Below are positions 1-12,476 of a stretch of DNA of 42,630 bases, piece by piece. Numbering within the stretch: position 1 is the first letter of the stretch; every line of letters begins with the position of its first letter. The notes beneath the pieces are model-generated. The model ran no database searches. It was not told the origin of the DNA and saw nothing but the letters and a program-made list of their open reading frames with translations. The stretch is from Spirochaetaceae bacterium (GTDB lineage: Bacteria > Spirochaetota > Spirochaetia > Treponematales > Rectinemataceae). The stretch covers positions 1 to 42,630 of the forward strand of contig JANXYO010000115.1 of the NCBI GenBank assembly GCA_025356015.1, given 5' to 3'. Both the position numbers and the translations under genes were made by a program.

Positions 1-1
1 C

Positions 2-625
2 CAGGAGATCAAGGACGACACGGTGAGCATCGCCGAGGCCATGAGTCCGGGCCCGGGCTGGATTGTCATCCACGCGGACGCTGAAGGGCGGGCGGGGACT
101 GTCATCGGCTACTCGGCCCTCGGCCCTGGCCTCAATCGGAATGTCCTCGTGAGGATCGATGCCTACTCGGCCACGCCGACCCTCCACGCCGTCCTCCACA
201 GGGACTCAGGCAAGGTCGGGGCCTACGAATTCCCCGGCCCCGACCTTCCCCTGGTCGCCGGAGGGGCCGAGGTTTCTCGGCCCTTCAAGGTCACCGGGAT
301 CGACAGCCGCGTCCGCGTCAGGGACCAGAGGGTCAGCCAGGGGACAGTGACCATCGCCGAGGTCCTCAGCGAGGCTCCGGCTTGGCTCGTGATCCACGCC
401 GACGCCAGGGGCAAGCCGGGGCCCGTGATCGGCCACGCCCCTGTGCCAGTAGGCCTCGTCAAGGACCTGATCGTCCCGATCATGGAGGCGAGGGCCACGG
501 ATCGGCTCTATGCAATGCTCCATACCGACGCCGGCATTGTCGGCACCTACGAGTTCCCCGGCCCCGACATCCCGGTTCTCGTCGACGGCGAGATGGTCTC
601 CCCCCACTTCGTCCTGGTCAGGTAG
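2..625 (+). CDS. DUF7282-repeat protein, 5' end outside window
   Basis: The reading frame is open from the window edge (codon at 2-4) to TAG at 623-625, so the N-terminus is missing. About 207 residues are visible. They form two tandem copies of one domain of roughly 90 residues, each starting with a V[ST]IAE motif, followed by W[IL]VIHAD, a hydrophobic middle, LH.D.G..G.YEFPGPD and a final [FV]. The sequence just before the first copy (KDDT) matches the linker before the second, so more copies may lie upstream. This repeat looks like DUF7282, an all-beta domain of secreted or surface proteins of unknown function in archaea and bacteria. The GTG at 23 is an internal codon of the first repeat, not a convincing start. 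The family name is from memory; the duplication is directly visible. Confidence 0.7.
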   Translation, partial: QEIKDDTVSIAEAMSPGPGWIVIHADAEGRAGTVIGYSALGPGLNRNVLVRIDAYSATPTLHAVLHRDSGKVGAYEFPGPDLPLVAGGAEVSRPFKVTGIDSRVRVRDQRVSQGTVTIAEVLSEAPAWLVIHADARGKPGPVIGHAPVPVGLVKDLIVPIMEARATDRLYAMLHTDAGIVGTYEFPGPDIPVLVDGEMVSPHFVLVR

Positions 626-631
626 CGTCCC

Positions 632-661
632 TTGACGGCAGCCAGCTCGGGGGGATAGACT
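632..661 (+). promoter_or_regulatory. trp operon promoter, sigma-70 type
   Basis: TTGACG (632-637, 5 of 6 to consensus) and TAGACT (656-661, 4 of 6) are separated by 18 bp, predicting a start near 668 and a leader of about 48 nt. The leader has no obvious leader peptide with Trp codons, no T-box-like structure and no strong terminator hairpin, so attenuation is not evident. The same -10 (TAGACT) with an 18-bp spacer appears before the hydroxyacid dehydrogenase gene. Confidence 0.5.
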
Positions 662-715
662 CGGCCCCAGACGTTACTACCGACAGAAGCGCATCGTCAG
701 GAGAGATTAAAAACC

Positions 716-2218
716 GTGATACGTCCATCCCGCTCCGATTACCTCAGGTCAGCGAGACAGGGGCACATCGTCCCCGTCCTCAAGGAGATCCGGGCCGACC
801 GCATCACCCCCATCGATGCCCTCTTCGCCCTTAATGGATCCTACCTCCTCGAGTCGGCCGAGCGGGGGGCCTTTGGCCGCTATTCCTTCCTCGGCTGCGA
901 GACCATCCTGGGCCTCAGGATAGAGGGCGAGGCCTGCGTGGTCAGCGAGGGCGGCCAGAGCCGGAGCTTTGTCTCGAGCGACCCGCTGCTCGCCATCGCC
1001 GACCTCATGCGCTCCCACCCCTACCTCGGCGAGGGCGGGTTTTCCCCCTTCCCCGGCGGGGCCGTGGGCTATCTCGGCTACGACGCGGCGAGGCGCTGGG
1101 AGAACCTGGGCGATGCCTCGGCCAAGCGGGGCCTGGGCCTGCCCGACGGGATGTTCATGATCACCCGCTACACCCTGGTCTTCGACAACCTCATGCACAC
1201 CTTGAGGATCGTTTCCAATTCGAGGCTCGAAGGCAGTCCCGAGGAGGCATGGGCCGATTCAATCGCCGGGATCGAGGCGATCGAGGCCGCCCTCGCGGCC
1301 TCGGCGACCGGGCGCGCAGAGCAGCGCTCCCCGCCGAGGACTGGCCCCCTCAAATCCAACATGGAGCGGGCCGCCTTCGAGGCGGCGGCCCTGAAGGCGA
1401 GGGAGCTCATCGAGGCCGGCGAGGCGAGTCAGGTGGTCCTCTCCCAGCGTTTCAGCGCCGAGTTCTCGGGCTCGGCCTTCGAGGCCTACCGCGCCCTGCG
1501 TTCCATAAACCCCTCTCCCTACATGTTCTACCTCGATTTCGGCGACTTCATCCTTTTCGGCGCCTCCCCCGAGGTCATGGTGAGGGTCGAGGACAGAAGG
1601 GCGGTCATGAGGCCCCTCGCCGGCACCGCCAGGAGGGGGGCCGACAGGGCCGAGGACCTGGCCATCGAGGCCTCCCTCGTCGCCGACGAGAGGGAAAGGG
1701 CCGAGCACCTCATGCTCATGGATCTCGCGCGCGGCGAGCTCGGCCGGGTCGCCGAGGCCGGCTCGGTGAGGGTGGACCGCATGATGGAGGTCGAGCGCTT
1801 CTCCCATGTCATGCACCTCGTCTCCGAGGTCTCCTGCGATCTCGCTCCCGGCCTCGACCAGTACGATGTCATCAGGTCGGTCTTCCCCGCCGGGAGCGTC
1901 TCGGGCCTGCCCAAGATCAGGGCCATGGAGATCATCGACAGGCTCGAGGCCGACAGGCGTGGCCCCTACGGGGGGCTGATCGGCTATTTCAGCTACGCTG
2001 GAGGCTTCGATTCCTGCATCGCTATCCGCTCCGCCCTCGTGAAGGACGGGATGATCCACATCCAGTCAGGCTCGGGTATCCTGGGCGACTCCGATCCCGC
2101 CGCCGAGTACGAGGAGAGCCTCGACAAGGCCGCGGCCCTCTTCGCCGCCCTCGGCAGCGAGGCCCCGCGCCAGTCCCCGGGTATCAGGCCGACGGGCTCG
2201 AGCGGAGGCATCAGATGA
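716..2218 (+). CDS. trpE: anthranilate synthase component I
   Basis: The product (500 aa, family-typical length) makes anthranilate from chorismate, the first committed step of tryptophan synthesis. The GTG start follows AGGAGAG at 699-705. The N-terminal LLES motif (about residues 41-44) corresponds to the tryptophan-feedback site of TrpE. The chorismate-binding half shows ASPE, PLAGT (alanine typical of TrpE rather than PabB), AEHLMLMDL and YGG.IGY. Two normally conserved motifs differ: the usual RND before LGR is RGE (residues 339-341), and SGAPK is SGLPK (Leu398). The Mg-binding glutamates appear intact. The stop overlaps the trpGD start (ATGA). Its amidotransferase partner lacks catalytic residues, so this subunit may work with free ammonia, which TrpE proteins can do in isolation. 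Identity is very likely; the consequence of the motif changes is unknown. Confidence 0.95.
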   Translation: MIRPSRSDYLRSARQGHIVPVLKEIRADRITPIDALFALNGSYLLESAERGAFGRYSFLGCETILGLRIEGEACVVSEGGQSRSFVSSDPLLAIADLMRSHPYLGEGGFSPFPGGAVGYLGYDAARRWENLGDASAKRGLGLPDGMFMITRYTLVFDNLMHTLRIVSNSRLEGSPEEAWADSIAGIEAIEAALAASATGRAEQRSPPRTGPLKSNMERAAFEAAALKARELIEAGEASQVVLSQRFSAEFSGSAFEAYRALRSINPSPYMFYLDFGDFILFGASPEVMVRVEDRRAVMRPLAGTARRGADRAEDLAIEASLVADERERAEHLMLMDLARGELGRVAEAGSVRVDRMMEVERFSHVMHLVSEVSCDLAPGLDQYDVIRSVFPAGSVSGLPKIRAMEIIDRLEADRRGPYGGLIGYFSYAGGFDSCIAIRSALVKDGMIHIQSGSGILGDSDPAAEYEESLDKAAALFAALGSEAPRQSPGIRPTGSSGGIR

Positions 2219-3810
2219 CCCTCATCATCGACAACTACGACTCCTTCGCCTGGAACCTCGCCCAGGCCTTCATGCGCCTCGGCGAGGAGGTGAAGGTCCT
2301 GAGGAACGACGGGATCGACCTCGACGACGCCGAGGCCCTCGACTTCGACCGACTCGTCATCGCCCCCGGCCCCGGGCATCCCGAGGGGGCAGGCAGGTGC
2401 ATCGAGCTGATAAGGGCCTTCGCCGGGCGCAAGCCCATCCTCGGCGTGGGCCTGGGCCATCTCGCCATCGCTGTCGCCTTCGGGGCCGTCGTCGCGAGGG
2501 CAGAGCGGGTGATGCACGGCAAGAGCGACTCGGTCGAGCACGACGGCCTCGCCCTCTTCCGCGACCTGCCAAACCCGGTCCGGGTCGTGCGCTACCATTC
2601 CCTCGCCGTCAGCGAATCGAGCCTGCCCGCTGGCTTCGAGGTGAGCGCGAGGTCCTCCGATGGCGACATCATGGGAATCAGGAACGCGGCCCGCAGGCTC
2701 GAGGGCCTGCAGTTCAGCCCCGAGTCGGCGGGTACCGAGGAAGGACAACGCATCATCGCCAACTTCCTAAGCGGGGCCCAGGAGGCACCCTCGATCAAGG
2801 CCCTGCTCAGGGGTCTCTCCTCCCGCCGTGACATGACGCGCTCCGAGGCCCGCAGCCTCATGGACAGGATCGCCGAGGGTGTCGCGACCGAGGCCCAGGT
2901 CGGGGCCCTCCTCGCGGCGATGACGGTGAAGGGACCCACCGTCGAGGAACTCACGGGCTTCGCCCTGTCCCTTCGCGAACGGGCCGTCCCCCTGCCCCTG
3001 CCACCCGGGACCCGGCTGACAGACACCTGTGGCACAGGCGGGGACAACTCGGGGAGCTTCAACATCTCGACCGCCGCGGCCTTCGTAGCGGCGGGAGCGG
3101 GAGCGCGCATCGCGAAGCACGGCAATCGCTCGGTCACCTCGCGCTCGGGCTCGGCCGACGTCCTCGAGGCGATGGGGGTGTCGACGAGGATGAGCCCGGC
3201 CGCCGCGGCCGCGGCCATCAAGGAGGCGGGCATGGCCTTCCTCTTCGCCCCCGCCTACCACCCCGCCTTCAAGAACATCGGCTCGGCCCGGCGCGAGCTG
3301 GGCTTCCGCACCCTCTTCAACATGATCGGCCCCCTGCTTAACCCCGCGAGGGCGAGCTCCCAGGTGGTCGGCGTCTATGCGAGCGAGCTGACCGAGACGG
3401 TCGCCGCCGTCCTCGCCGAGCTGGGTGTCGAGGAGGCCCTGGTCGTCCACGGCCACGACGGCATCGACGAGATCAGTCTCGCCGAGGCTACCAAGGTCAC
3501 CCAGCTGCGCCAGGGCTGGACCAGGACTTGGACCCTCGACCCGGCGGAGTATGGCTTCGAGCCCTGCGCCCGCTCCGACCTCAAGGGAGGGGAGGCCAGG
3601 GCCAACGCGCGCATCATCGAGGGCATCCTCGACGGAGAGCCGGGACCGCGCCGCGACGTCGTCGTCCTCAACGCCGCGGCGGCCATATTGGTCTCGGGGC
3701 TCGAGGCCGACTACAGGAGGGCCATCGGCTCGGCCCAGGCATCGATAGACTCAGGCAGGGCCGCCGCCGTCCTCGCCTCCTTGCGAAGGCTCTCGGGCAA
3801 GGCGGGATGA
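2215..3810 (+). CDS. trpGD: TrpG(pseudo-glutaminase)-TrpD fusion: anthranilate phosphoribosyltransferase
   Basis: A 531-residue fusion like enterobacterial TrpD. Residues 1-190 have the TrpG glutamine-amidotransferase fold: DNYDSF, PGPGHPEGAG, HGK, RYHSLAV. The nucleophile motif, normally G[IV]CLGHQ, reads GVGLGHL, so Cys is Gly79 and Gln is Leu. The motif normally FHPES reads FSPES, so the catalytic His is Ser168, with Glu170 kept. Two of three triad residues are gone while structural motifs remain. Residues from about 198 form TrpD, which joins PRPP and anthranilate; it has CGTGGD (272-277), NIST, KHGNRSVTSRSGSADVLEA and RRELGFRTLFN, all typical of active enzymes. The start overlaps the trpE stop and the stop overlaps the trpC start (ATGA both times). 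TrpD activity is expected; glutaminase activity is not. A structural or ammonia-channelling role for the first half is inference. Confidence 0.93.
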   Translation: MTLIIDNYDSFAWNLAQAFMRLGEEVKVLRNDGIDLDDAEALDFDRLVIAPGPGHPEGAGRCIELIRAFAGRKPILGVGLGHLAIAVAFGAVVARAERVMHGKSDSVEHDGLALFRDLPNPVRVVRYHSLAVSESSLPAGFEVSARSSDGDIMGIRNAARRLEGLQFSPESAGTEEGQRIIANFLSGAQEAPSIKALLRGLSSRRDMTRSEARSLMDRIAEGVATEAQVGALLAAMTVKGPTVEELTGFALSLRERAVPLPLPPGTRLTDTCGTGGDNSGSFNISTAAAFVAAGAGARIAKHGNRSVTSRSGSADVLEAMGVSTRMSPAAAAAAIKEAGMAFLFAPAYHPAFKNIGSARRELGFRTLFNMIGPLLNPARASSQVVGVYASELTETVAAVLAELGVEEALVVHGHDGIDEISLAEATKVTQLRQGWTRTWTLDPAEYGFEPCARSDLKGGEARANARIIEGILDGEPGPRRDVVVLNAAAAILVSGLEADYRRAIGSAQASIDSGRAAAVLASLRRLSGKAG

Positions 3811-4604
3811 GCACCCTCGACGAGATCCTCGAGGCCCGCCGGGCCGCGGTGGCAAGGAACTCAAGGGATCGCCCCTGGGCTTCCCTCGAGAGGCCATGGA
3901 AGCTCCCGGTTCCAGCTTTCGACAAAGCCTCTCCCTTCACCCTCATAGCCGAGTGCAAGTGCGCCTCTCCCTCGCGGGGCATCCTCGTCGAGGACTATGA
4001 CCCGGCGCGCCTCGCCCTGGCCTACGAGCGAGGAGGGGCCAGCGTGGTTTCCGTCCTCACCGAGCCCAGCCGCTTCTTTGGCCACGACTCCCATCTCGAG
4101 GCCGTGCGGGCCGCGGTCGGGCTCCCGATCCTCCGCAAAGACTTCATCTTCGACCCCTACCAGGTGAGGGAAGCCTGGGCCATCGGAGCCGACGCAGTCC
4201 TCCTCATCGCCGCTTGCCTTGATCCCCGCCTTGTCGAGGATCTCGCCGACGCAGCCCACGAACATGGCCTCGAGGTCCTCCTTGAGATCCATGGCAGGGA
4301 CGAGCTCGAGGGCATCGATTCCTCCCTGGCCGAGGCCATTGGGGTCAACGCCAGAAACCTCAGGGACCTCTCCCTTGACCCCGGCATGGTCTCATCGATA
4401 GCAGGCCTCCTGCCCAAGGAGGCCCTCAGGGTCGCCGAGTCCGGTCTGAAGAACCCCGCCACGGCCCAGGCCCTCTACCGACTGGGCTATCGCGGCTTCC
4501 TCGTGGGCGAGCACTTCGCGACAGCGGCCGAGCCCGAGGCCTCGGTCCTCTCCTTCGCCACCGCCCTCTCGGACTGTGCCTCCCGCCGGGGAGGCCCGCG
4601 TTGA
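3807..4604 (+). CDS. trpC: indole-3-glycerol-phosphate synthase
   Basis: The 265-aa TIM-barrel enzyme closes the indole ring from CdRP. Visible signatures: IAECK..SPSRG near residues 50-60 (catalytic Glu and Lys), LRKDFIFDPYQ (second Lys), LEVLLEIHGRDEL (catalytic Glu), GVNARNL (Asn) and VAESGL (Ser). Deviations are CKC where K[KR] is usual before ASPSRG, and GEHFA where GE[AS]LM is usual in the phosphate-binding loop near the C-terminus. ATG overlaps the trpGD stop as ATGA, and the TGA stop overlaps the TTG of trpF. It is monofunctional; trpF is a separate gene immediately downstream. Confidence 0.94.
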   Translation: MSTLDEILEARRAAVARNSRDRPWASLERPWKLPVPAFDKASPFTLIAECKCASPSRGILVEDYDPARLALAYERGGASVVSVLTEPSRFFGHDSHLEAVRAAVGLPILRKDFIFDPYQVREAWAIGADAVLLIAACLDPRLVEDLADAAHEHGLEVLLEIHGRDELEGIDSSLAEAIGVNARNLRDLSLDPGMVSSIAGLLPKEALRVAESGLKNPATAQALYRLGYRGFLVGEHFATAAEPEASVLSFATALSDCASRRGGPR

Positions 4605-5266
4605 GGCCCCTGGTCAAGATATGCGGCATCACCAATTACGAGGATGCAGCCCTGGCCCTCGAGCTTGGCGCCGACTTCATAGGCTTTGTCATGGCGCCCT
4701 CGCCGAGGAGGGTGGAGGCCGCATCGGTGGCCGCCATCGTCGCCCGCCTGAAAGACCGGGGCCTGCTCGCCCGGGCAAGGACGGTCGGGGTCTTCGTGAA
4801 CCAAGAGCCCTCCCTGATGGCCTCGATCATGGCCGAGGCCTCGCTCGACGAGGCCCAGATCCACGGGGACGAGGGCCTGGCCTTCTGCGAGGCCCTCCCC
4901 TTTCCCTGGTACCGCGCCCTCCGCGTCGCCGATGTCGCCGATGCCTTGCGGCTCGCCGGGCTCTGGGCCGGCTCGTCCTCGGGGCGCCTCCTCTTCGAGG
5001 CGGCTTCGGGCAGGGCCTACGGGGGGACGGGGGTCCAGGTCGACGCCGAGGCCGCGAGGGCGGCCCTCCTGGCCTGCAGGAGGACCGGCAAGCAGTTCTT
5101 CCTCGCCGGGGGCCTCGCTCCGGGCAATGTGGGCAGCGCAATACTCTCCCTCGGGCCCGACGGCATAGACGCCTCCTCGGGCCTCGAGGATTCTCCGGGC
5201 AGGAAATCGGCCGAGGCGCTCAGGCGTTTCTTCGCAGCGATCGCGGCGGCCTCGGGCGGGAGATGA
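4601..5266 (+). CDS. trpF: phosphoribosylanthranilate isomerase
   Basis: The 221-aa protein isomerises PRA to CdRP. It starts with TTG overlapping the trpC stop (TTGA), so expression probably depends on coupling. KICGIT near the N-terminus carries the general-base Cys (Cys8). The second catalytic position, an Asp in the LLLD motif seven residues before GGTG, is Glu133 here (RLLFEAASGRAYGGTG). That is conservative but unusual. FLAGGL.P.NV and GIDASSGLE near the end are typical phosphate-binding segments. There is a four-nucleotide gap to the trpB GTG. Confidence 0.93.
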   Translation: MRPLVKICGITNYEDAALALELGADFIGFVMAPSPRRVEAASVAAIVARLKDRGLLARARTVGVFVNQEPSLMASIMAEASLDEAQIHGDEGLAFCEALPFPWYRALRVADVADALRLAGLWAGSSSGRLLFEAASGRAYGGTGVQVDAEAARAALLACRRTGKQFFLAGGLAPGNVGSAILSLGPDGIDASSGLEDSPGRKSAEALRRFFAAIAAASGGR

Positions 5267-5270
5267 AAAA

Positions 5271-6569
5271 GTGAAACGACACGATGAGCGATACTTCGGA
5301 TCCTACGGGGGCCGCTACATACCCGAGGTCTTGAGGCCCGCCTTCGAGGAGCTCGAGAGGGCATGGGAATCGGCACGGAGCGACGAGGCCTTCTGGCTCG
5401 AGTTCGAGCGCCTGTGCGGCGACTACATCGGGCGGCCCACGCCCCTGTACCCTGCGGGAAATCTCTCGCGGGACCTGGGCGGCATCAGGGTCTACCTGAA
5501 GCTCGAGGGCCTCGCCCACACGGGGGCCCACAAGATCAACAACGCCCTCGGCCAGGCCCTCCTCGCGAAGCGCATGGGCAAGAAGCGGGTCATCGCCGAG
5601 ACGGGGGCCGGCCAGCACGGCCTCGCCACCGCCGCCGTGGCCGCCCGCTTCGGCCTCGAGTGCGAGGTCTTCATGGGCGAGGTGGACATGGCACGCCAGC
5701 ACCCGAACGTCTTCGCCATGAGGACCTTCGGGGCCACCGTGACCCCCGTCCATGACGGCTCGCGCACCCTCACCGACGCTGTGAACGCCGCGCTCAAGAA
5801 CTGGACCGAGCGGATCGCGGACACCCACTATGTCCTCGGCTCGGCCCTCGGCCCCCACCCCTACCCCGGCATGGTCGCCCGGTTCCAGTCCGTCATCGGA
5901 ATCGAGACGAGGCGGCAGATCATGGAGCGCGAGGGCCGCCTGCCCGACGCGATCTACGCCTGCGTGGGCGGTGGCTCCAATTCGATCGGCATCTTCGGCG
6001 CCTTCCTCGCGGACGACGTGAGCCTCGTCGGCGTCGAGGCCGGGGGCTCAGGGAGTGAGGCGGGCATGCACGCTGTGCGCATGGGTGGCAAGGCCAGGGT
6101 CGGGGTTGTCCAGGCCTACAAGTCCTATTTCCTCCAGGACGGCGACGGATCCCTCCTTCCCACCCATTCGGTGAGCGCCGGCCTCGACTACGCGGGCATA
6201 GGGCCCCAGCTCGCCTCACTCGGCGACTCGAAGAGGATCCGCTTCATCGAGGCGAGCGACGAGGAGGCGATCTCGGCCCTCCGCCGCACCGCCAGGGCCG
6301 AGGGCATCCTCCCCGCCCTCGAGTCGGCCCACGCCCTCGCCGGCCTCTTCCGCGAGGCCGGGAGCCTGGACAAGGGGAGGCTTGTGGTCGTCAACGTGTC
6401 AGGCAGGGGGGACAAGGACCTCTTCATCACCGCTCCCATCCTTGAGCGCTCAGACTGGATGGCCTTCCTCGAGAGGGAGCTCGACTCCTTGAGGACCCAG
6501 GCCCTGGCCGAAGCGTCCTTGGGCCAGGCCCGTGTGAAGCGACCCAGGCTCGACGGTGAGCCTTCATGA
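5271..6569 (+). CDS. trpB: tryptophan synthase beta chain
   Basis: The 432-residue PLP enzyme condenses indole and serine to tryptophan. The GTG start is preceded by a purine-rich GGGCGGGAGA. The upstream ATG at 5263 meets a stop after three codons and is rejected. The PLP lysine is Lys88 in HTGAHKINNALGQ; catalytic Glu is Glu110 in AETGAGQHG; the phosphate loop is GGGSNSIG (233-240); SGRGDKD is near 390. Departures from the TrpB1 consensus: KLEGL for K.EDL before HTG, and AGIGPQL (308-314) for PGVGPEH after SAGLDY. There is a C-terminal tail of about 30 residues beyond the usual end. Its stop overlaps the trpA ATG, consistent with a 1:1 alpha-beta complex that channels indole. Confidence 0.95.
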   Translation: MKRHDERYFGSYGGRYIPEVLRPAFEELERAWESARSDEAFWLEFERLCGDYIGRPTPLYPAGNLSRDLGGIRVYLKLEGLAHTGAHKINNALGQALLAKRMGKKRVIAETGAGQHGLATAAVAARFGLECEVFMGEVDMARQHPNVFAMRTFGATVTPVHDGSRTLTDAVNAALKNWTERIADTHYVLGSALGPHPYPGMVARFQSVIGIETRRQIMEREGRLPDAIYACVGGGSNSIGIFGAFLADDVSLVGVEAGGSGSEAGMHAVRMGGKARVGVVQAYKSYFLQDGDGSLLPTHSVSAGLDYAGIGPQLASLGDSKRIRFIEASDEEAISALRRTARAEGILPALESAHALAGLFREAGSLDKGRLVVVNVSGRGDKDLFITAPILERSDWMAFLERELDSLRTQALAEASLGQARVKRPRLDGEPS

Positions 6570-7378
6570 CCGGGGTCGATCGCATAACGCGTGACTTCGA
6601 CGGCCTCGGTGGCCGCATCGGCCTCATGACCCACGCGGTCTGCGGCTGGCCGTCAATGGAGGCCTCGAGGAGGATACTGCTCTCGGCCTCGCGTTCGGGC
6701 GCCGACTTCCTCGAGGCCCAGCTTCCCTTCAGCGAGCCCTCGGCGGATGGCCCCTTGATCGTCAAGGCCAACCACGAGGCCCTGCTCGCGGGATCGAGCA
6801 CGGCCGCGGCCCTCGCCATGCTCGCCGCGCTGCGTCGCGTCTGCGGGACGCCCATCCTCGTGATGAGCTATCTCAACACCCTCGTGTCGCGGGGCATCGA
6901 CAGCGTCCTTGAGCAGATGTCGGAAGCGGGCCTCGACGGCCTCATCGTGCCCGACTACCCCGACGACGAGCTCGAGTTCGAGCTCGCGGAGAAATGCGAG
7001 CGCTCGGGCATCGCCTTCGTGCCCCTCATCGCCCCCACCACGGGCCTCGGGCGCGCGGCCTCCCTCGCCTCGGCCTCGAACTCGCCCTTTGTCTACGCGG
7101 TGCTGAGGCTCGGTGTCACGGGGCGCAGGACTGAGCTAGGTGTCGAGGGCCTCGCCGCCCTCGACGCTATGCGGTCCCGGACGGGGAAGAAGGTAGCGGC
7201 CGGCTTTGGCATCGCGGAACGCTCCCAGATCGAGGCCCTCTCTGGCCACGCCGACTGCGCCATCGTCGGCTCGGCCCTTGTCGCCCGCGTCGACGCTGCC
7301 CTCGCCTCGGGGGAAGACCCCGCCGAGGCGGTGGCCTCATTCGTCGCTTCCCTAGCTAGAAGCCCCAGCGGAAGCTGA
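6566..7378 (+). CDS. trpA: tryptophan synthase alpha chain
   Basis: The 270-residue TIM-barrel enzyme cleaves indole-3-glycerol phosphate to indole and GAP. Catalytic Glu50 (FLEAQ) and Asp61 (SADGP) are present, as are VPD.P and a VTG loop. Deviations: LMTHAVCGWPS in place of the usual PYITAGDP segment, and PFSEP in place of PFSDP. The ATG overlaps the trpB stop. The last 23 bp overlap the tail of the convergent NlpC/P60 gene on the other strand, so there is no room for an intergenic terminator. It closes a complete six-gene trp operon. Confidence 0.92.
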   Translation: MTGVDRITRDFDGLGGRIGLMTHAVCGWPSMEASRRILLSASRSGADFLEAQLPFSEPSADGPLIVKANHEALLAGSSTAAALAMLAALRRVCGTPILVMSYLNTLVSRGIDSVLEQMSEAGLDGLIVPDYPDDELEFELAEKCERSGIAFVPLIAPTTGLGRAASLASASNSPFVYAVLRLGVTGRRTELGVEGLAALDAMRSRTGKKVAAGFGIAERSQIEALSGHADCAIVGSALVARVDAALASGEDPAEAVASFVASLARSPSGS

Positions 7379-8381
7379 GGCCCAGACCCGCGCTCACCAC
7401 AGCCCCTGGGTCGGTGGCTCCCCCCGCCTTGGGGACGTAGCGGTTGTACACGAGCTGGCCGAAGAGGCCTGCGTCTCTGCCGGCGAGGGTGAAGCGAAGG
7501 GGGGTCCAGACGACTCCGGCTGTCGCCAGGAGCCCGCCCTCGGCCCTGTAGCTCCTCGCATCGCTTCCCGAACCCAGGGTGGGGCTACCCAGGGTGAGGG
7601 CGGGGCCGGCGAAGAACCTCAGGTCCTTTCCCACCGAGACCGAGAGGACGGCAGGGAGCCTGAGCACGCCAAGGGCGGCATCGTACTCGGGCCTCGCCTC
7701 GATCCCCACTTCGAGGCCGATGATCCTCGTGCCCAGACCGGCACTCGCCGAGACCCCCCTCAAGAGGGGTCCCGAGCCGAGTTCGGGGGCAAGGGCCGCG
7801 CTGAAGACAAGGCCGAGGTATTCGGCAGGGGGGATCAGGCGCCCTGCTCCCGCGTAGGTCCTCGTCCAGGTCGGCTCCGAGAGTGAGGACTCCATGACCC
7901 CCCTGGTCTGTCCCTCCGAGGCGGCATGGATGAAGCGCCCCTCCCCCGCATAGATGCCCACGTGGGCCAGGGGCCCGTCGGTGTCGAAGAAGACGAGGTC
8001 GCCGATCTGGAGCTCGTTTCTCTGTATCGGCTCGCAGAAGAGATAGAGGGTCTTCACGGTGCGGGGCACGCTGATGGAGACCGCCTCGCGGTACACGATG
8101 TACACGAGGCCCGAGCAGTCCATCCCCGCCCTGTCGCTGCCGCCGTAGCGGTAGGGCACGCCCTCGAAGGCCGCGGCGGCCACGAGGATCCTGCCCCGGG
8201 CTGCCTTGGGAGCGCCAACGGCGAGGGGGGCCTCGGCGAATGCCTGGGAGGCGAAGCTCTGGGCAGCGAGAAGGGCCATGGCGAGGAGGGCCGCGCGGGC
8301 GAAGGCGGCCGCCCTCCATGGCATGGCTCTGGCCGCCGGGGCCCCGGCGGGCCCCTGGCCAGCTGTGGCCCGCCTCCTCAA
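7356..8381 (-). CDS. secreted NlpC/P60 peptidase with C-terminal barrel-like domain
   Basis: 341 aa. A basic N-terminus and hydrophobic stretch at about 28-49 form a signal peptide, probably cut after SQAFA. Residues about 62-175 are an NlpC/P60 domain, a family of cell-wall endopeptidases cleaving gamma-D-Glu to diamino-acid bonds. Cys89 lies in DCSGL, His140 in AHVGIY and the third polar residue is His152. ELQIGDLVFF is typical. Residues about 200-341 alternate Gly/Ser/aromatic positions in strand-like segments and end in Phe (LGLSFRWGF), resembling an outer-membrane beta-barrel with a C-terminal beta-signal. The TTG start overlaps the upstream dehydrogenase stop (TTGA) and follows AAGGAG by five nucleotides. 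The peptidase assignment is firm; the barrel is inferred from pattern. Confidence 0.85.
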   Translation of the reverse strand: MRRRATAGQGPAGAPAARAMPWRAAAFARAALLAMALLAAQSFASQAFAEAPLAVGAPKAARGRILVAAAAFEGVPYRYGGSDRAGMDCSGLVYIVYREAVSISVPRTVKTLYLFCEPIQRNELQIGDLVFFDTDGPLAHVGIYAGEGRFIHAASEGQTRGVMESSLSEPTWTRTYAGAGRLIPPAEYLGLVFSAALAPELGSGPLLRGVSASAGLGTRIIGLEVGIEARPEYDAALGVLRLPAVLSVSVGKDLRFFAGPALTLGSPTLGSGSDARSYRAEGGLLATAGVVWTPLRFTLAGRDAGLFGQLVYNRYVPKAGGATDPGAVVSAGLGLSFRWGF

Positions 8382-9358
8382 TACATCTCCTTAAGGTTGG
8401 CCTCGCGCGAGCAGCTGCCCGTCCGCAGCCACTGTGTGATGTTCTCTATGGTCTGGTCGGCGCCCATGAAGGTCCCTTCCCGGGTCGAGCCTGCGATGTG
8501 GGGGGTCATGACGACATTGGGAAGCTCGTTGATCGGGAAACGCGAGGGAAGGCCCTCGAGAGCCCCGGCCTGGGGATAGGCATACCAGGTATCGATGCCC
8601 GCCCCCTTGAGCACCCCGTCGCGCAGGGCGAGGTAGAGGCCTTCCTCGTCGAGGACGGGACCCCTACCCACGTTGACGATGAACTTGCCCTTGGCCGCAA
8701 GCAGGAGCTCCTTCGAGAAGAGGCCCGTGGTCGAGGGGGTGAGGGGCAGGGCGACAAAAAGGAGCTCGGCCGAGGCGACGGCCTTGGCGAGGTCGGTCTC
8801 GATACGGTCGAAGTTGGGAGGGATGGGGGCGCCAGCATGGCGGCGATAGCCGACTACGGGGCATTCGAAGGCCTTGAGCAGGCGCGCGAGGACGGTCCCG
8901 ATGGCCCCGGTACCGAAGATGGCGCAGGGACGGCGGAATATCGAGCTCCACTCGTCCTCGGCCCCCTTGCCGACCCAGAAGCCGTGCCACTTACGCACGC
9001 GCAGGTCGTTGTGGTACTCGACGATCCTCCCGTAGAAGGAGAGGGCCAGGGCAAGGGCGCACTGGGCCACGGATTCGGCGTTGCCGTGGACATTGTAGGC
9101 CTTGATGCCGCGCTCGATCATGAGCTCTGCGGGCAGGTGGTTCAGTCCCGTGATCGGGACAAAGACGGCCTTCAGGACCTTGGCCCTCTCGTACACCGAT
9201 AGGTCCACTCGGCTCGCCAGCATGGCGTCGGCGCCCTCGATGGCGGCGCTGGCAGCCTCGGGGCCGAGAACGAACTCGACCCCGGGGAACTCGGCCTTGA
9301 GGCGCTCGAGACGCTCGGTCCAGAACGAGCCCAGGGGCATGAAGGAAACGATGCGCAT
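8378..9358 (-). CDS. D-isomer-specific 2-hydroxyacid dehydrogenase family protein
   Basis: 326 aa, NAD(P)-dependent oxidoreductase of the D-2-hydroxyacid family. The start at 9358 has AGGAGGG four nucleotides upstream; the frame extends further up but without a start signal. The Rossmann motif is FGTGAIG (about 148-154). Arg232 (NVGRGP) and His287 (TPHIAGS) are two of three catalytic residues. The third, a Glu three residues after the Asp of GAGLDVFE, is Tyr259 here (GIDTWYAYP). The specific substrate cannot be read from sequence. The stop is fused to the TTG of the NlpC/P60 gene, so the two are likely co-transcribed. Confidence 0.85.
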   Translation of the reverse strand: MRIVSFMPLGSFWTERLERLKAEFPGVEFVLGPEAASAAIEGADAMLASRVDLSVYERAKVLKAVFVPITGLNHLPAELMIERGIKAYNVHGNAESVAQCALALALSFYGRIVEYHNDLRVRKWHGFWVGKGAEDEWSSIFRRPCAIFGTGAIGTVLARLLKAFECPVVGYRRHAGAPIPPNFDRIETDLAKAVASAELLFVALPLTPSTTGLFSKELLLAAKGKFIVNVGRGPVLDEEGLYLALRDGVLKGAGIDTWYAYPQAGALEGLPSRFPINELPNVVMTPHIAGSTREGTFMGADQTIENITQWLRTGSCSREANLKEMY

Positions 9359-9386
9359 TGTCCCTCCTGATGTGCGACGCCTTGTA

Positions 9387-9416
9387 AGTCTATCCCGGCT
9401 CGCTTCCGGGAGGCAA
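9387..9416 (-). promoter_or_regulatory. promoter of the hydroxyacid dehydrogenase gene
   Basis: On the minus strand TTGCCT (9416-9411) and TAGACT (9392-9387) are separated by 18 bp, about 30 bp before the ATG. A short inverted repeat (CCCGG/CCGGG) lies within the spacer. The -10 and spacing are the same as in the trp promoter. Confidence 0.4.
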
Positions 9417-9494
9417 GCGCGGGGCATCCGAAGCGCCCAACGCGCCACCGCCCCCCAAAAGGGCCCGACGCTACTCCCCGGCAGGGAAAAGTGC

Positions 9495-9500
9495 TACACT
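9495..9500 (+). promoter_or_regulatory. -10-like element before the ankyrin lipoprotein
   Basis: TACACT matches the -10 consensus at 4 of 6 positions, with no good -35. It ends six bases before an in-frame ATG at 9507, so a transcript could begin on that codon. The Shine-Dalgarno-led ATG at 9561 is the alternative start. Confidence 0.3.
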
Positions 9501-9560
9501 CTGGCCATGCGAAAACGCGGGGGCGGCAAGCCAGGCCGCTCCAAGGCAAGGAGACCCACA

Positions 9561-12476
9561 ATGAAGGCCAGATCATACGCACACCTTACGATAGCCTCCG
9601 GTCCGACGGGATCCGGCGAGCCGATGCGACGTCGAAGACCCGGCTTGCTCATCCTCGCGGCCACCCTCATGGCCTCCCTCGCCTTCGCGCCGGGCCTGGT
9701 TTCCTGCTCGGGGGCGCCCAAGCCATCCCCCGCCCCGGCTCCTGCCCCGGCCCCGAGCCCTCCTCCTCCCGTGGAAAAGCCGGCGCCCAACCTCTCCGAC
9801 CTCATCGCGGCCGGCGACGAGGCCGGCATCCGCACCTTCTTCGCGAACCAGGAGCAGCTCAGCCTCCCCGACGCCAAGGGCTCCTACCCCCTCCACAGGG
9901 CCATCGAGAAGGGTTCGGCCCAGACCGTGGAGCTCCTCCTCGTCCTCGGCGCCAAGATCGAGGTCAAGGACTCCCAGGGCCGCAGCCCCCTGCGCCTCGC
10001 CGTGGACACGGGCAGCGCCGACTGCGCCAAGATCCTCGTCTCCCGCGGCGCCGACACCTTTAGCCTCGACGCCTCGGGCCGCTCGGTCGCCGAGGCCGCC
10101 CTCGCCAAGGGCCCCGCCATGATCCAGGTTGTCTTCAACAGGGACAACGTCAACGCGCGCGCCGCCGACGGATCGACAGTCCTCCATGTCGCCTGCGACC
10201 GCCTCCTCGAGGACGCGGTGGCCAGGCTCCTCGCTGCCGGGGCCGATGTCTCCCTGAGGGACAAGGTCGGCCGCAGCCCCCTGGACCTCGCCCTCCTCCA
10301 TCCCGACCGGATCGAGGCGGCTCGCATCGCCGAGCTCCTCATACAGAAGGGAGCCGGGCCCTCCTACCCCGACTTCTCCTGGTTCTCCCAGGCCGCGCGC
10401 GCTGTCGACTACAATTCCCTGCGCTTCGAGGACGGTGCTACCGCCCTCCACGAGGCCACCTCCCACCGCCAGAGAGGCTTCGTCGAGTTCCTGCTCTCGC
10501 GCAAGGTCAATCCCAACTCGCGCAACAGCGCCGGCTCCACCCCCCTCCACGAGGCCGTCCGATCGGGCTGGCTCGACGGGGCCGAGCTTCTCATGAAGAA
10601 CGGGGCCGACCCTAACGCCCGCGACGGCTTCGACAATACCCCCCTGCACATCGCCCTGCCCGACGAGGGCAGGAAGGACGGGGTGGCCCTCCTGCTGCGC
10701 TATGGCGCCGACCCCTCGCTCAAGGACCGCAATGGCAACACCCCCCTGCATGTCGCCATCCAGGTCGGCTATCCGGTGCCCATGATCGAGGAACTCATCG
10801 CCGCCAAGGCCCCGGTCAACGCCACCAACGCCGCCGGGGACGGAGCCCTCATGCTGGCCCTGCGGGCCAAGCGCTACGACTACGCGAAGCCCCTCCTCGA
10901 CGCGGGGGCCGACATCTTCCTCGTGAACGCCCGCGCCGAGAGCCCCCTCTCCCTTGCGGTGGCCGCGGGACCCGACGCCCTCGACGCCATCATCACGGCC
11001 GCCAACGTCAAGTCGAAGGACAACTTCGGCAACGGGCCCCTGGCCCTCGCGGTGGGCCTCAAGGCGAGTCCCCAGTCCATAGCCCTCCTCGTGTCCAAGG
11101 GAGCCGAGCCGAACGCGCGCAACAACGCCGGCGACACCGCCCTCCACCTCACCGTGCGCCAGAACCTGAAGGAGCAGGGCGAGGCCCTCATCCTCGCGAA
11201 GGCCGACATCTTCGTGGCCAACGTGCGCGGGGAATCCCCCCTGTCCATCGCCCTCACCGCCCGAGGAGGCCCGATCGACTGGCTCTTCACCGCCGACACC
11301 GTCACCGCAAGGGACGCGAACGGCGAGACCTGCCTCCACCACGCCGCCCGGCGCAACCTCGCGAGCGCCCTCGAGTTCCTCGTGGGCAAGGGCGCCGTCC
11401 TCGACGCGGCCAACGGAAGCGGCGAGACCCCCCTGCACGCCGCGGTCAAGGCCGACTCGGCCGAGGCGGCCCGCGCCCTGCTTAGCCTGGGCGCCCAGAG
11501 CGCCGCGCGCGACACAATGGGCGACACTCCCCTCCATGCCGCCGTGCTGTGGGGCGCCCGCAAGAGCCTCCCCGTCCTGGTGCTCGCCGGGGTCGACCTC
11601 AATGCCCGCGACTTCGCCGGCGAGGCCCCCCTGAATCAGGCGGTGCGAAAGAAGGACCGCGAGTCGGCGAGGTTCCTGCTCGACCACGGGGCCGACCCCG
11701 ACTCCCGGGATAACCGCGGGGCAAGCCCCCTCTCGACGGCCGCGCGCTCCGGCTCGGCGGACCTGGTCCGGGACCTGCTCGCCGCCAAGGCCGACGTCGC
11801 CAACCGCGACCTCGCGGGGAGGACCCCCCTCCTCGAGGCGGCCGATCTGGGCGACGTGGAGACCACACGCCTCCTCGTGGGCGCCGGGGCCGACATCATG
11901 GCCCGCGACTCCGACGGCGACAGCCCCCTGGGCATCGCCCTCAAGCGCAGCATGGCCGTCCTCAAGACCCTCCTGATCTCCGCGAACGTCAACCGCGCCG
12001 ATCCCGACGGCATGACCCCCTTGCGAATAGCTGTCGAGTCGAAGGCCTCGAACGAGGCCCTCGACCTGGTCCTCTCGAACGGGGCCGACATCGACCAGCG
12101 CGACCGCTACTCCGACACGGCCCTCAACGCGGCCCTGCGCACGGGCAACCTCGAGCTCGCGGGCAGGCTGGCCAAGGCAGGTGCCGACCTCTTCGCCCGG
12201 GACAAGGACGGGGAGACCCCGGTCTCCATGGCCATGGCCAAGGGGACAGAGGCCCTCAAGACCCTGGTCACCGCGGCGGGCATCGGGGCCAGGGACGTCC
12301 TCGGCAACGGCCTCTTGCACTACGCTGCGGTCTCCGGCTCGAGCGAGGCGGCGGCCTGGCTCCTGGCGGCCGGCGCCGACAGGTCGGCGCGGAACATCTC
12401 CGGGGAGACGGCAGCCGACGTGGCCGAGAAGCGGGGCAAGACCGATCTCGCGACGCTTCTCAAGCCGGGAAAATAG
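9561..12476 (+). CDS. large ankyrin-repeat lipoprotein
   Basis: 971 aa. The chosen ATG follows AAGGAG by seven nucleotides; an in-frame ATG at 9507 near a -10-like box would add 18 residues. A basic region (MRRRRPG) and hydrophobic core lead to a lipobox LVSC, so the protein is probably lipid-anchored. A Pro/Ala spacer (about 52-76) precedes roughly 25 ankyrin repeats that run to the C-terminus, with many G.TPLH.A and GAD.N.RD signatures. A variant unit with the pattern DIF....GESPLS.A....L..L..A.NV.ARD recurs at about 10050, 10905, 11200, 11890 and 12180. Two of these intervals are close to 297 nt, exactly three 33-residue repeats. Ankyrin arrays bind proteins; the partner is unknown. Neighbours give no functional hint. 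Confidence 0.88.
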   Translation: MKARSYAHLTIASGPTGSGEPMRRRRPGLLILAATLMASLAFAPGLVSCSGAPKPSPAPAPAPAPSPPPPVEKPAPNLSDLIAAGDEAGIRTFFANQEQLSLPDAKGSYPLHRAIEKGSAQTVELLLVLGAKIEVKDSQGRSPLRLAVDTGSADCAKILVSRGADTFSLDASGRSVAEAALAKGPAMIQVVFNRDNVNARAADGSTVLHVACDRLLEDAVARLLAAGADVSLRDKVGRSPLDLALLHPDRIEAARIAELLIQKGAGPSYPDFSWFSQAARAVDYNSLRFEDGATALHEATSHRQRGFVEFLLSRKVNPNSRNSAGSTPLHEAVRSGWLDGAELLMKNGADPNARDGFDNTPLHIALPDEGRKDGVALLLRYGADPSLKDRNGNTPLHVAIQVGYPVPMIEELIAAKAPVNATNAAGDGALMLALRAKRYDYAKPLLDAGADIFLVNARAESPLSLAVAAGPDALDAIITAANVKSKDNFGNGPLALAVGLKASPQSIALLVSKGAEPNARNNAGDTALHLTVRQNLKEQGEALILAKADIFVANVRGESPLSIALTARGGPIDWLFTADTVTARDANGETCLHHAARRNLASALEFLVGKGAVLDAANGSGETPLHAAVKADSAEAARALLSLGAQSAARDTMGDTPLHAAVLWGARKSLPVLVLAGVDLNARDFAGEAPLNQAVRKKDRESARFLLDHGADPDSRDNRGASPLSTAARSGSADLVRDLLAAKADVANRDLAGRTPLLEAADLGDVETTRLLVGAGADIMARDSDGDSPLGIALKRSMAVLKTLLISANVNRADPDGMTPLRIAVESKASNEALDLVLSNGADIDQRDRYSDTALNAALRTGNLELAGRLAKAGADLFARDKDGETPVSMAMAKGTEALKTLVTAAGIGARDVLGNGLLHYAAVSGSSEAAAWLLAAGADRSARNISGETAADVAEKRGKTDLATLLKPGK

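Follow-up and report, generated by a model that had tools for sequence, protein, structure and literature searches.

Can an anthranilate synthase still serve tryptophan synthesis when its glutaminase has been stripped of its catalytic residues, and if so, what feeds it? The question is raised by a contig of 42,630 nucleotides (JANXYO010000115.1, contig C65; hereafter the window) from an uncultured Spirochaetaceae bacterium, whose assembly (GCA_025356015.1) comprises 4.17 Mb in 150 contigs and is 99.4% complete and 3.6% contaminated. The window starts with a complete tryptophan operon in the order trpE-trpGD-trpC-trpF-trpB-trpA (716-7378, all on the + strand), in which the glutaminase TrpG is fused to the anthranilate phosphoribosyltransferase TrpD. 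The same gene order was found in the four closest genomes compared (G006, G016, G018, and G009), which belong to the same family and are referred to as sisters below. TrpG residues are numbered as in E. coli PabA, to which they correspond one by one in a phmmer alignment (C79, H168, E170), in agreement with the published PabA numbering (PMC7617670). The fusion and the residues in question are as follows.

2215..3810, + strand: trpGD fusion, 531 amino acids, without internal stop
2215..2790, + strand: TrpG domain of TrpGD, class I glutamine amidotransferase fold, catalytically dead as judged by sequence (PF00117, E 4e-49; trpG_papA TIGR00566, 191 bits)
2362..2364, + strand: TrpG codon 50, GCC, Ala immediately ahead of the PGPG oxyanion loop, at a position where 80 of 80 homologues have Ser
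2449..2451, + strand: TrpG codon 79, GGC, Gly replacing the nucleophile Cys (translation and alignment)
2461..2463, + strand: TrpG codon 83, CTC, Leu replacing a conserved Gln (alignment)
2716..2718, + strand: TrpG codon 168, AGC, Ser replacing the catalytic His (translation and alignment)
2722..2724, + strand: TrpG codon 170, GAG, Glu retained as the third residue of the triad (translation)

In the translation of 2215-3810 the nucleophile elbow of TrpG reads ILGVGLGHLAIAV and the His motif reads EGLQFSPES. The original prediction had named Gly for Cys79, Leu for the conserved Gln, and Ser for His168 next to a kept Glu170, and a codon check bore out all four in an intact frame. Ser50 is a fourth conserved residue lost, beyond the three named there. 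Gln83 is a substrate contact in active TrpG and PabA. By its residues, TrpG would be a dead glutaminase, unable either to bind glutamine or to split it. The sisters, whose TrpGD fusions (PRK14607-type) share 66–70% TrpG identity with the window and have canonical TrpG and TrpE residues, carry TCN, TGC, CAG, and CAY at codons 50, 79, 83, and 168. At least six base changes separate these from the window's codons, so that a single sequencing error cannot account for the state of TrpG.

Of 80 TrpG homologues taken from other genomes, none departs from Cys79 or His168 where the residue is covered; Gln83 is present in 97%, with two exceptions that both have Glu. The four sisters are among the 80, and all keep Ser50, Cys79, Gln83, and His168. 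Most homologues were retrieved with patterns that do not overlap residues 79 or 168, and the sample is therefore unbiased at those residues. In addition, 393 genomes of the phylum were scanned for a His-less pattern (Tyr-His-Ser/Thr-Leu followed by Gln-Phe-X-Pro-Glu, X not His), which yielded six matches. Only the window's match reads as TrpG; the other five cannot be read on as TrpG and were taken as chance. The same pattern with His matched in 188 of these genomes, and 188 canonical against one His-less TrpG mark the window's state as rare. Recurrence of a dead TrpG was seen neither among the 80 homologues nor in the 393 genomes by the His-less pattern, which is blind to other dead forms such as a loss of Cys only. 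The state is perhaps unique among the sequences searched. No report of a natural dead TrpG was found in the open-access literature; subscription papers were mostly outside the scope of this search, and an earlier report may exist. Two other TrpG-like findings were made in passing. A stand-alone TrpG-like protein of a same-family genome (L020 in G008) has unusual exchanges at conserved sites (G60L, L76F, H82L, E170D, and F184A) and keeps Cys79, Gln83, and His168, and a distant member of the phylum (G103) has two near-identical TrpG motif matches, on C107 and C149, possibly two TrpG copies or a strain mixture.

The changes in TrpG do not look like random decay. Forty-one TrpG columns are conserved at 95% or more, and the window is changed at four of them only (S50A, C79G, Q83L, H168S); the 37 intact columns include R30, Y127, and H128, and S171 is also kept. 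In E. coli PabA, R30, Y127, and S171 contact the synthase, while H128 is needed for glutamine binding (PMC7617670). The probability that four columns drawn at random from the 41 include 79, 83, and 168 is about 4e-4. Under a looser, 11-residue definition of the site the enrichment is borderline (p 0.05), and the strength of the non-randomness hence depends on how the glutaminase site is defined. The G+C content of third codon positions (GC3) is 0.90 in TrpG, equal to TrpE (0.89) and TrpD. The dN/dS values against the sisters are 0.25–0.36 for TrpG, 0.30–0.35 for TrpE, 0.26–0.33 for TrpD, and 0.26–0.32 for TrpB, and serve for comparison between genes only, not as absolute values, as dS is near saturation (0.45–1.1 for TrpE, TrpG, and TrpD). 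The TrpG branch leading to the window is moderately longer (0.31) than those of the sisters (0.15–0.26, mean about 0.20). A predicted TrpG model (pLDDT 92.8) superimposes on E. coli PabA (8rp0) with Z 31.7 and a root-mean-square deviation of 1.2 Å over 185 residues; it has the class I glutamine amidotransferase fold and lacks the nucleophile Cys79, His168, and Gln83. The earlier view that the fold is maintained while catalysis is removed, unlike random decay, is upheld by this model and by a dN/dS not above that of TrpE, TrpD, or TrpB.

The synthase subunit TrpE is also altered (N340G, D341E, K326R, A398L, I238S), which the original prediction had not mentioned.

716..2218, + strand: trpE, encoding component I of anthranilate synthase, privately changed at invariant positions (TIGR00564, 483.8 bits; start codon predicted)
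1427..1429, + strand: TrpE codon 238, Ser, aligned with PabB Tyr210
1691..1693, + strand: TrpE codon 326, Arg for an invariant Lys (alignment)
1721..1732, + strand: TrpE Asp336 and Arg339, kept, matching the glutaminase-docking residues D308 and R311 of PabB (alignment)
1733..1738, + strand: TrpE codons 340-341, Gly-Glu for an invariant Asn-Asp, adjoining the docking residues (alignment)
1907..1909, + strand: TrpE codon 398, Leu in place of the Ala that is invariant in the SGAPK motif (alignment)

Lys326, Asn340, Asp341, and Ala398 never vary in 37 other sequences of anthranilate synthases (AS) and aminodeoxychorismate synthases (ADCS), and the four sisters keep K, N, D, and A at these positions; in the window they are replaced by Arg, Gly, Glu, and Leu. 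Position 238 is hydrophobic in 37 of 37 others and Ser in the window. The corresponding PabB Tyr210 helps to complete the glutaminase pocket (PMC7617670). These private changes at family-invariant positions place the whole anthranilate synthase, not TrpG alone, off the norm. From their neighbourhood to the docking residues, Gly340, Glu341, and Leu398 would lie near the channel.

The enzymes encoded downstream, TrpD, C, F, B, and A, seem unremarkable.

2800..3810, + strand: TrpD domain of TrpGD, anthranilate phosphoribosyltransferase, normal constraint (TIGR01245, 388.7 bits, cut-off 199)
3807..4604, + strand: trpC (profile match)
4601..5266, + strand: trpF (profile match)
5271..6569, + strand: trpB (TIGR00263, 556.8 bits)
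6566..7378, + strand: trpA (TIGR00262, 168.8 bits)

We compared eleven operons and considered the columns invariant in all operons other than the window's. The window is changed at 17 of 122 such columns in TrpE and 10 of 72 in TrpG, as against 2 of 79 in TrpD, 0 of 40 in TrpC, 1 of 35 in TrpF, 5 of 174 in TrpB, and 1 of 44 in TrpA (TrpE and TrpG versus the other five, 9/372: Fisher p 4e-7). At the conserved columns of TrpD, none of 38 is changed. In simulations on fitted trees the counts were exceptional for TrpE (p 0.007) and TrpG (p 0.013) and not for the other five genes (p at least 0.85). When the fraction of invariant columns changed was simulated instead, p was about 0.12 each for TrpE and TrpG; the excess within single genes is thus moderate, and more weight lies on the contrast between genes.

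Much of TrpE is nevertheless as expected, and its active site is mixed: the Mg and chorismate ligands E330, H367, R438, and E467 are kept next to the changed K326, N340, D341, and A398. The tryptophan feedback residues Ser47, Pro268, Met270, and Tyr424 are kept as well. Some of these site roles were assigned through the numbering of Salmonella TrpE. The roles of catalytic and tryptophan-site residues are in part from PMC10464499. Docking residues are kept on both subunits, namely E129, G235, D336, and R339 in TrpE, the equivalents of PabB E119, G207, D308, and R311, and R30, Y127, and S171 in TrpG; in PabB, D308A and R311A abolish assembly (PMC7617670). The TrpE model (pLDDT 90.4) has the AS/ADCS fold, with Z 47–49 to AS and ADCS chains. 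The E. coli PabA/PabB ADCS (8rp0, 8rp1) has the same TrpG numbering as the window's enzyme and the same docking pairs (PMC7617670), and the folds agree (Z 31.7 and 45.9). PabA, however, is an active glutaminase with C79 and H168, both of which the window's TrpG lacks, and the equivalents of PabB N312, D313, K298, A370, and Y210 are changed in the window's TrpE. Where PabB has Lys274, this TrpE has Ala302 in an AS-type PI/LAGT motif, which makes it AS-like, and the gene stands in a full trp operon. TrpGD passes the cut-offs of TIGR01245 and TIGR00566. It falls below that of NF011201 (627.5 bits, cut-off 670), which the three sisters tested pass (695, 672, and 680), and TrpE is below the TIGR00564 cut-off (517.7), as are the sisters. 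That a dead TrpG passes TIGR00566 calls for caution with annotation pipelines that score fold and not catalytic residues.

The original prediction had offered, next to ammonia dependence, a PabA borrowed from a folate operon. Neither a second TrpG/PabA (PF00117 profile search) nor a PabB was found in the assembly, and we reject a borrowed PabA for this assembly. The genome has five PF00117 domains, in the window's TrpG, PyrG, GuaA, a PuuD-like hydrolase, and HisH, and TrpE is its only chorismate-binding enzyme. Cys and His motifs are intact in PyrG, GuaA, the PuuD-like hydrolase, and HisH, and a glutamine synthetase gene is present, on which grounds a general abandonment of glutamine by the cell was rejected. 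The genome also has two matches to the ammonium transporter AmtB. Apart from the tryptophan enzymes, the lack of PabB and of any PabA-type protein means that the ADCS route to p-aminobenzoate is not visible in the assembly; the cell may scavenge the folate precursor or make it by another route. Carbamoyl phosphate synthetase likewise seems absent from the assembly, with no CarA (PF00988) and no CarB above the cut-off (TIGR01369 gave only a weak match of 118 residues). PyrB is nonetheless encoded on C28, and CarA-like matches occur in same-family genomes; the apparent absence of CarA and CarB could be an assembly gap or reflect another source of carbamoyl phosphate.

We favour, as just on the probable side of even, an anthranilate synthase uncoupled from glutamine and dependent on ammonia, in which TrpG would be retained for its structural role and as a tether to TrpD. 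TrpG would still fold, is predicted to dock on TrpE, and would tether TrpE to the fused TrpD, while TrpE would make anthranilate from chorismate and free ammonia. The complex would still form and TrpE would be active with ammonia as its substrate; the changes in TrpE would be adaptation, or drift once glutaminase and ammonia passage had fallen out of use. TrpE alone uses ammonia at high ammonium (PMC10464499), and glutaminase subunits are reported to be dispensable at high ammonia where this was tested (PMC6385983). Human CPS1 is the closest precedent for a dead glutaminase with an ammonia-fed synthase. In its glutaminase domain Cys is replaced by Ser294, the ancestral tunnel is blocked, and another route of ammonia entry has been proposed (PMC4655335). 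Like the window's AS, CPS1 keeps a class I glutaminase fold without the nucleophile Cys together with its synthase. In CPS1 ammonia is the substrate and the old ammonia tunnel is altered, whereas ammonia use by the window's enzyme is putative, and the changes in TrpE may be the counterpart of this tunnel remodelling. The two also differ in that CPS1 is a single animal chain of the urea cycle with a triad incomplete at Cys, whereas the window's TrpG lacks Cys, His, and the conserved Gln, belongs to a bacterial tryptophan enzyme, and comes from one genome. We put forward only tentatively, as somewhat short of even, the further-reaching version that both subunits co-evolved into a glutamine-independent enzyme, a bacterial counterpart of CPS1 in which TrpG would be purely a scaffold between TrpD and TrpE and TrpE would take ammonia by a rebuilt route. 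TrpE-TrpG is a textbook case of ammonia channelling, and a naturally occurring form in which the glutaminase is dead and the synthase altered along with it would separate those parts of the partner that are structural from those that serve channelling only, and would let the reason for keeping dead glutaminases be tested in a simple bacterial enzyme.

Several points weigh against ammonia dependence. The state is carried by one genome, the sole representative of its genus among the genomes compared; the four sisters also have AmtB, so that the gene content tested gives no sign of a special ammonia supply; and the loss of the invariant TrpE residues N340, D341, K326, and A398 may mean reduced or altered synthase activity. 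The TrpE changes may equally mark an enzyme being lost. The whole anthranilate synthase would then have been released from selection recently, with anthranilate or a later intermediate taken from the surroundings, TrpG persisting only through its fusion to TrpD, and TrpE not yet having acquired a stop. This would explain why TrpE and TrpG change together, and it agrees with invariant columns being changed in excess in these two subunits only (Fisher p 4e-7), with their being the only genes to exceed the simulated counts (p 0.007 and 0.013), and with the longer TrpG branch (0.31 versus a mean of about 0.20). We nonetheless regard it as unlikely, although it is the main rival and seriously to be reckoned with: TrpE is an intact frame of 500 codons with GC3 0.89 and a dN/dS like that of TrpB and TrpD, its catalytic, docking, and feedback residues are kept, the four changes in conserved TrpG columns are not randomly spread, and the fraction of invariant columns changed is not above simulation (p about 0.12 each).

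A changed chemistry, in which TrpE would use water in place of ammonia in the manner of isochorismate or salicylate synthases, or would release aminodeoxyisochorismate, is improbable. A398L does introduce a bulky side chain at a position that is always Ala in AS and ADCS, and isochorismate and salicylate synthases have a bulky residue there. Two exchanges in a channel can turn an AS into a bifunctional AS/isochorismate synthase (PMC5270213). The window's TrpE, however, scores 167.9 and 149.3 bits with the isochorismate and salicylate synthase profiles, below the sisters (179–181 and 170–172), and is encoded by the first gene of a full trp operon as the genome's only chorismate-binding enzyme. 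It misses both cut-offs (224.75 and 325.15 bits), and a drift to either activity was rejected. The kept docking residues of TrpE would also suit another glutaminase, or an enzyme that releases ammonia, docking there and providing ammonia in trans; this is very improbable, as TrpG presumably occupies the docking surface and PyrG, GuaA, HisH, and the PuuD-like protein belong to other pathways. Most improbable of all is an error of sequencing or assembly, or a contig that is a contaminant. In its favour are the fragmentation of the assembly into 150 contigs, with 3.6% contamination, and the state being known from a single genome. Against it speak the six or more base changes, which fall in four codons and cause no frameshift, parallel changes in TrpE, a gene order as in the sisters, and a TrpG 66–70% identical to same-family relatives. 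The original prediction had held that relatives keeping Cys and His would point to a strain error; the relatives do keep both, yet the extent of change argues against error.

No Rfam match to an RNA leader of the operon was found in window positions 1-9000. TrpG matches are strong in only 8 of 30 genomes of the window genome's family, where the tryptophan pathway thus seems patchy. Downstream of the operon, positions 9102-12476 (+ strand) hold an open frame of 1124 residues that, by eye, looks like dozens of ankyrin-like repeats.

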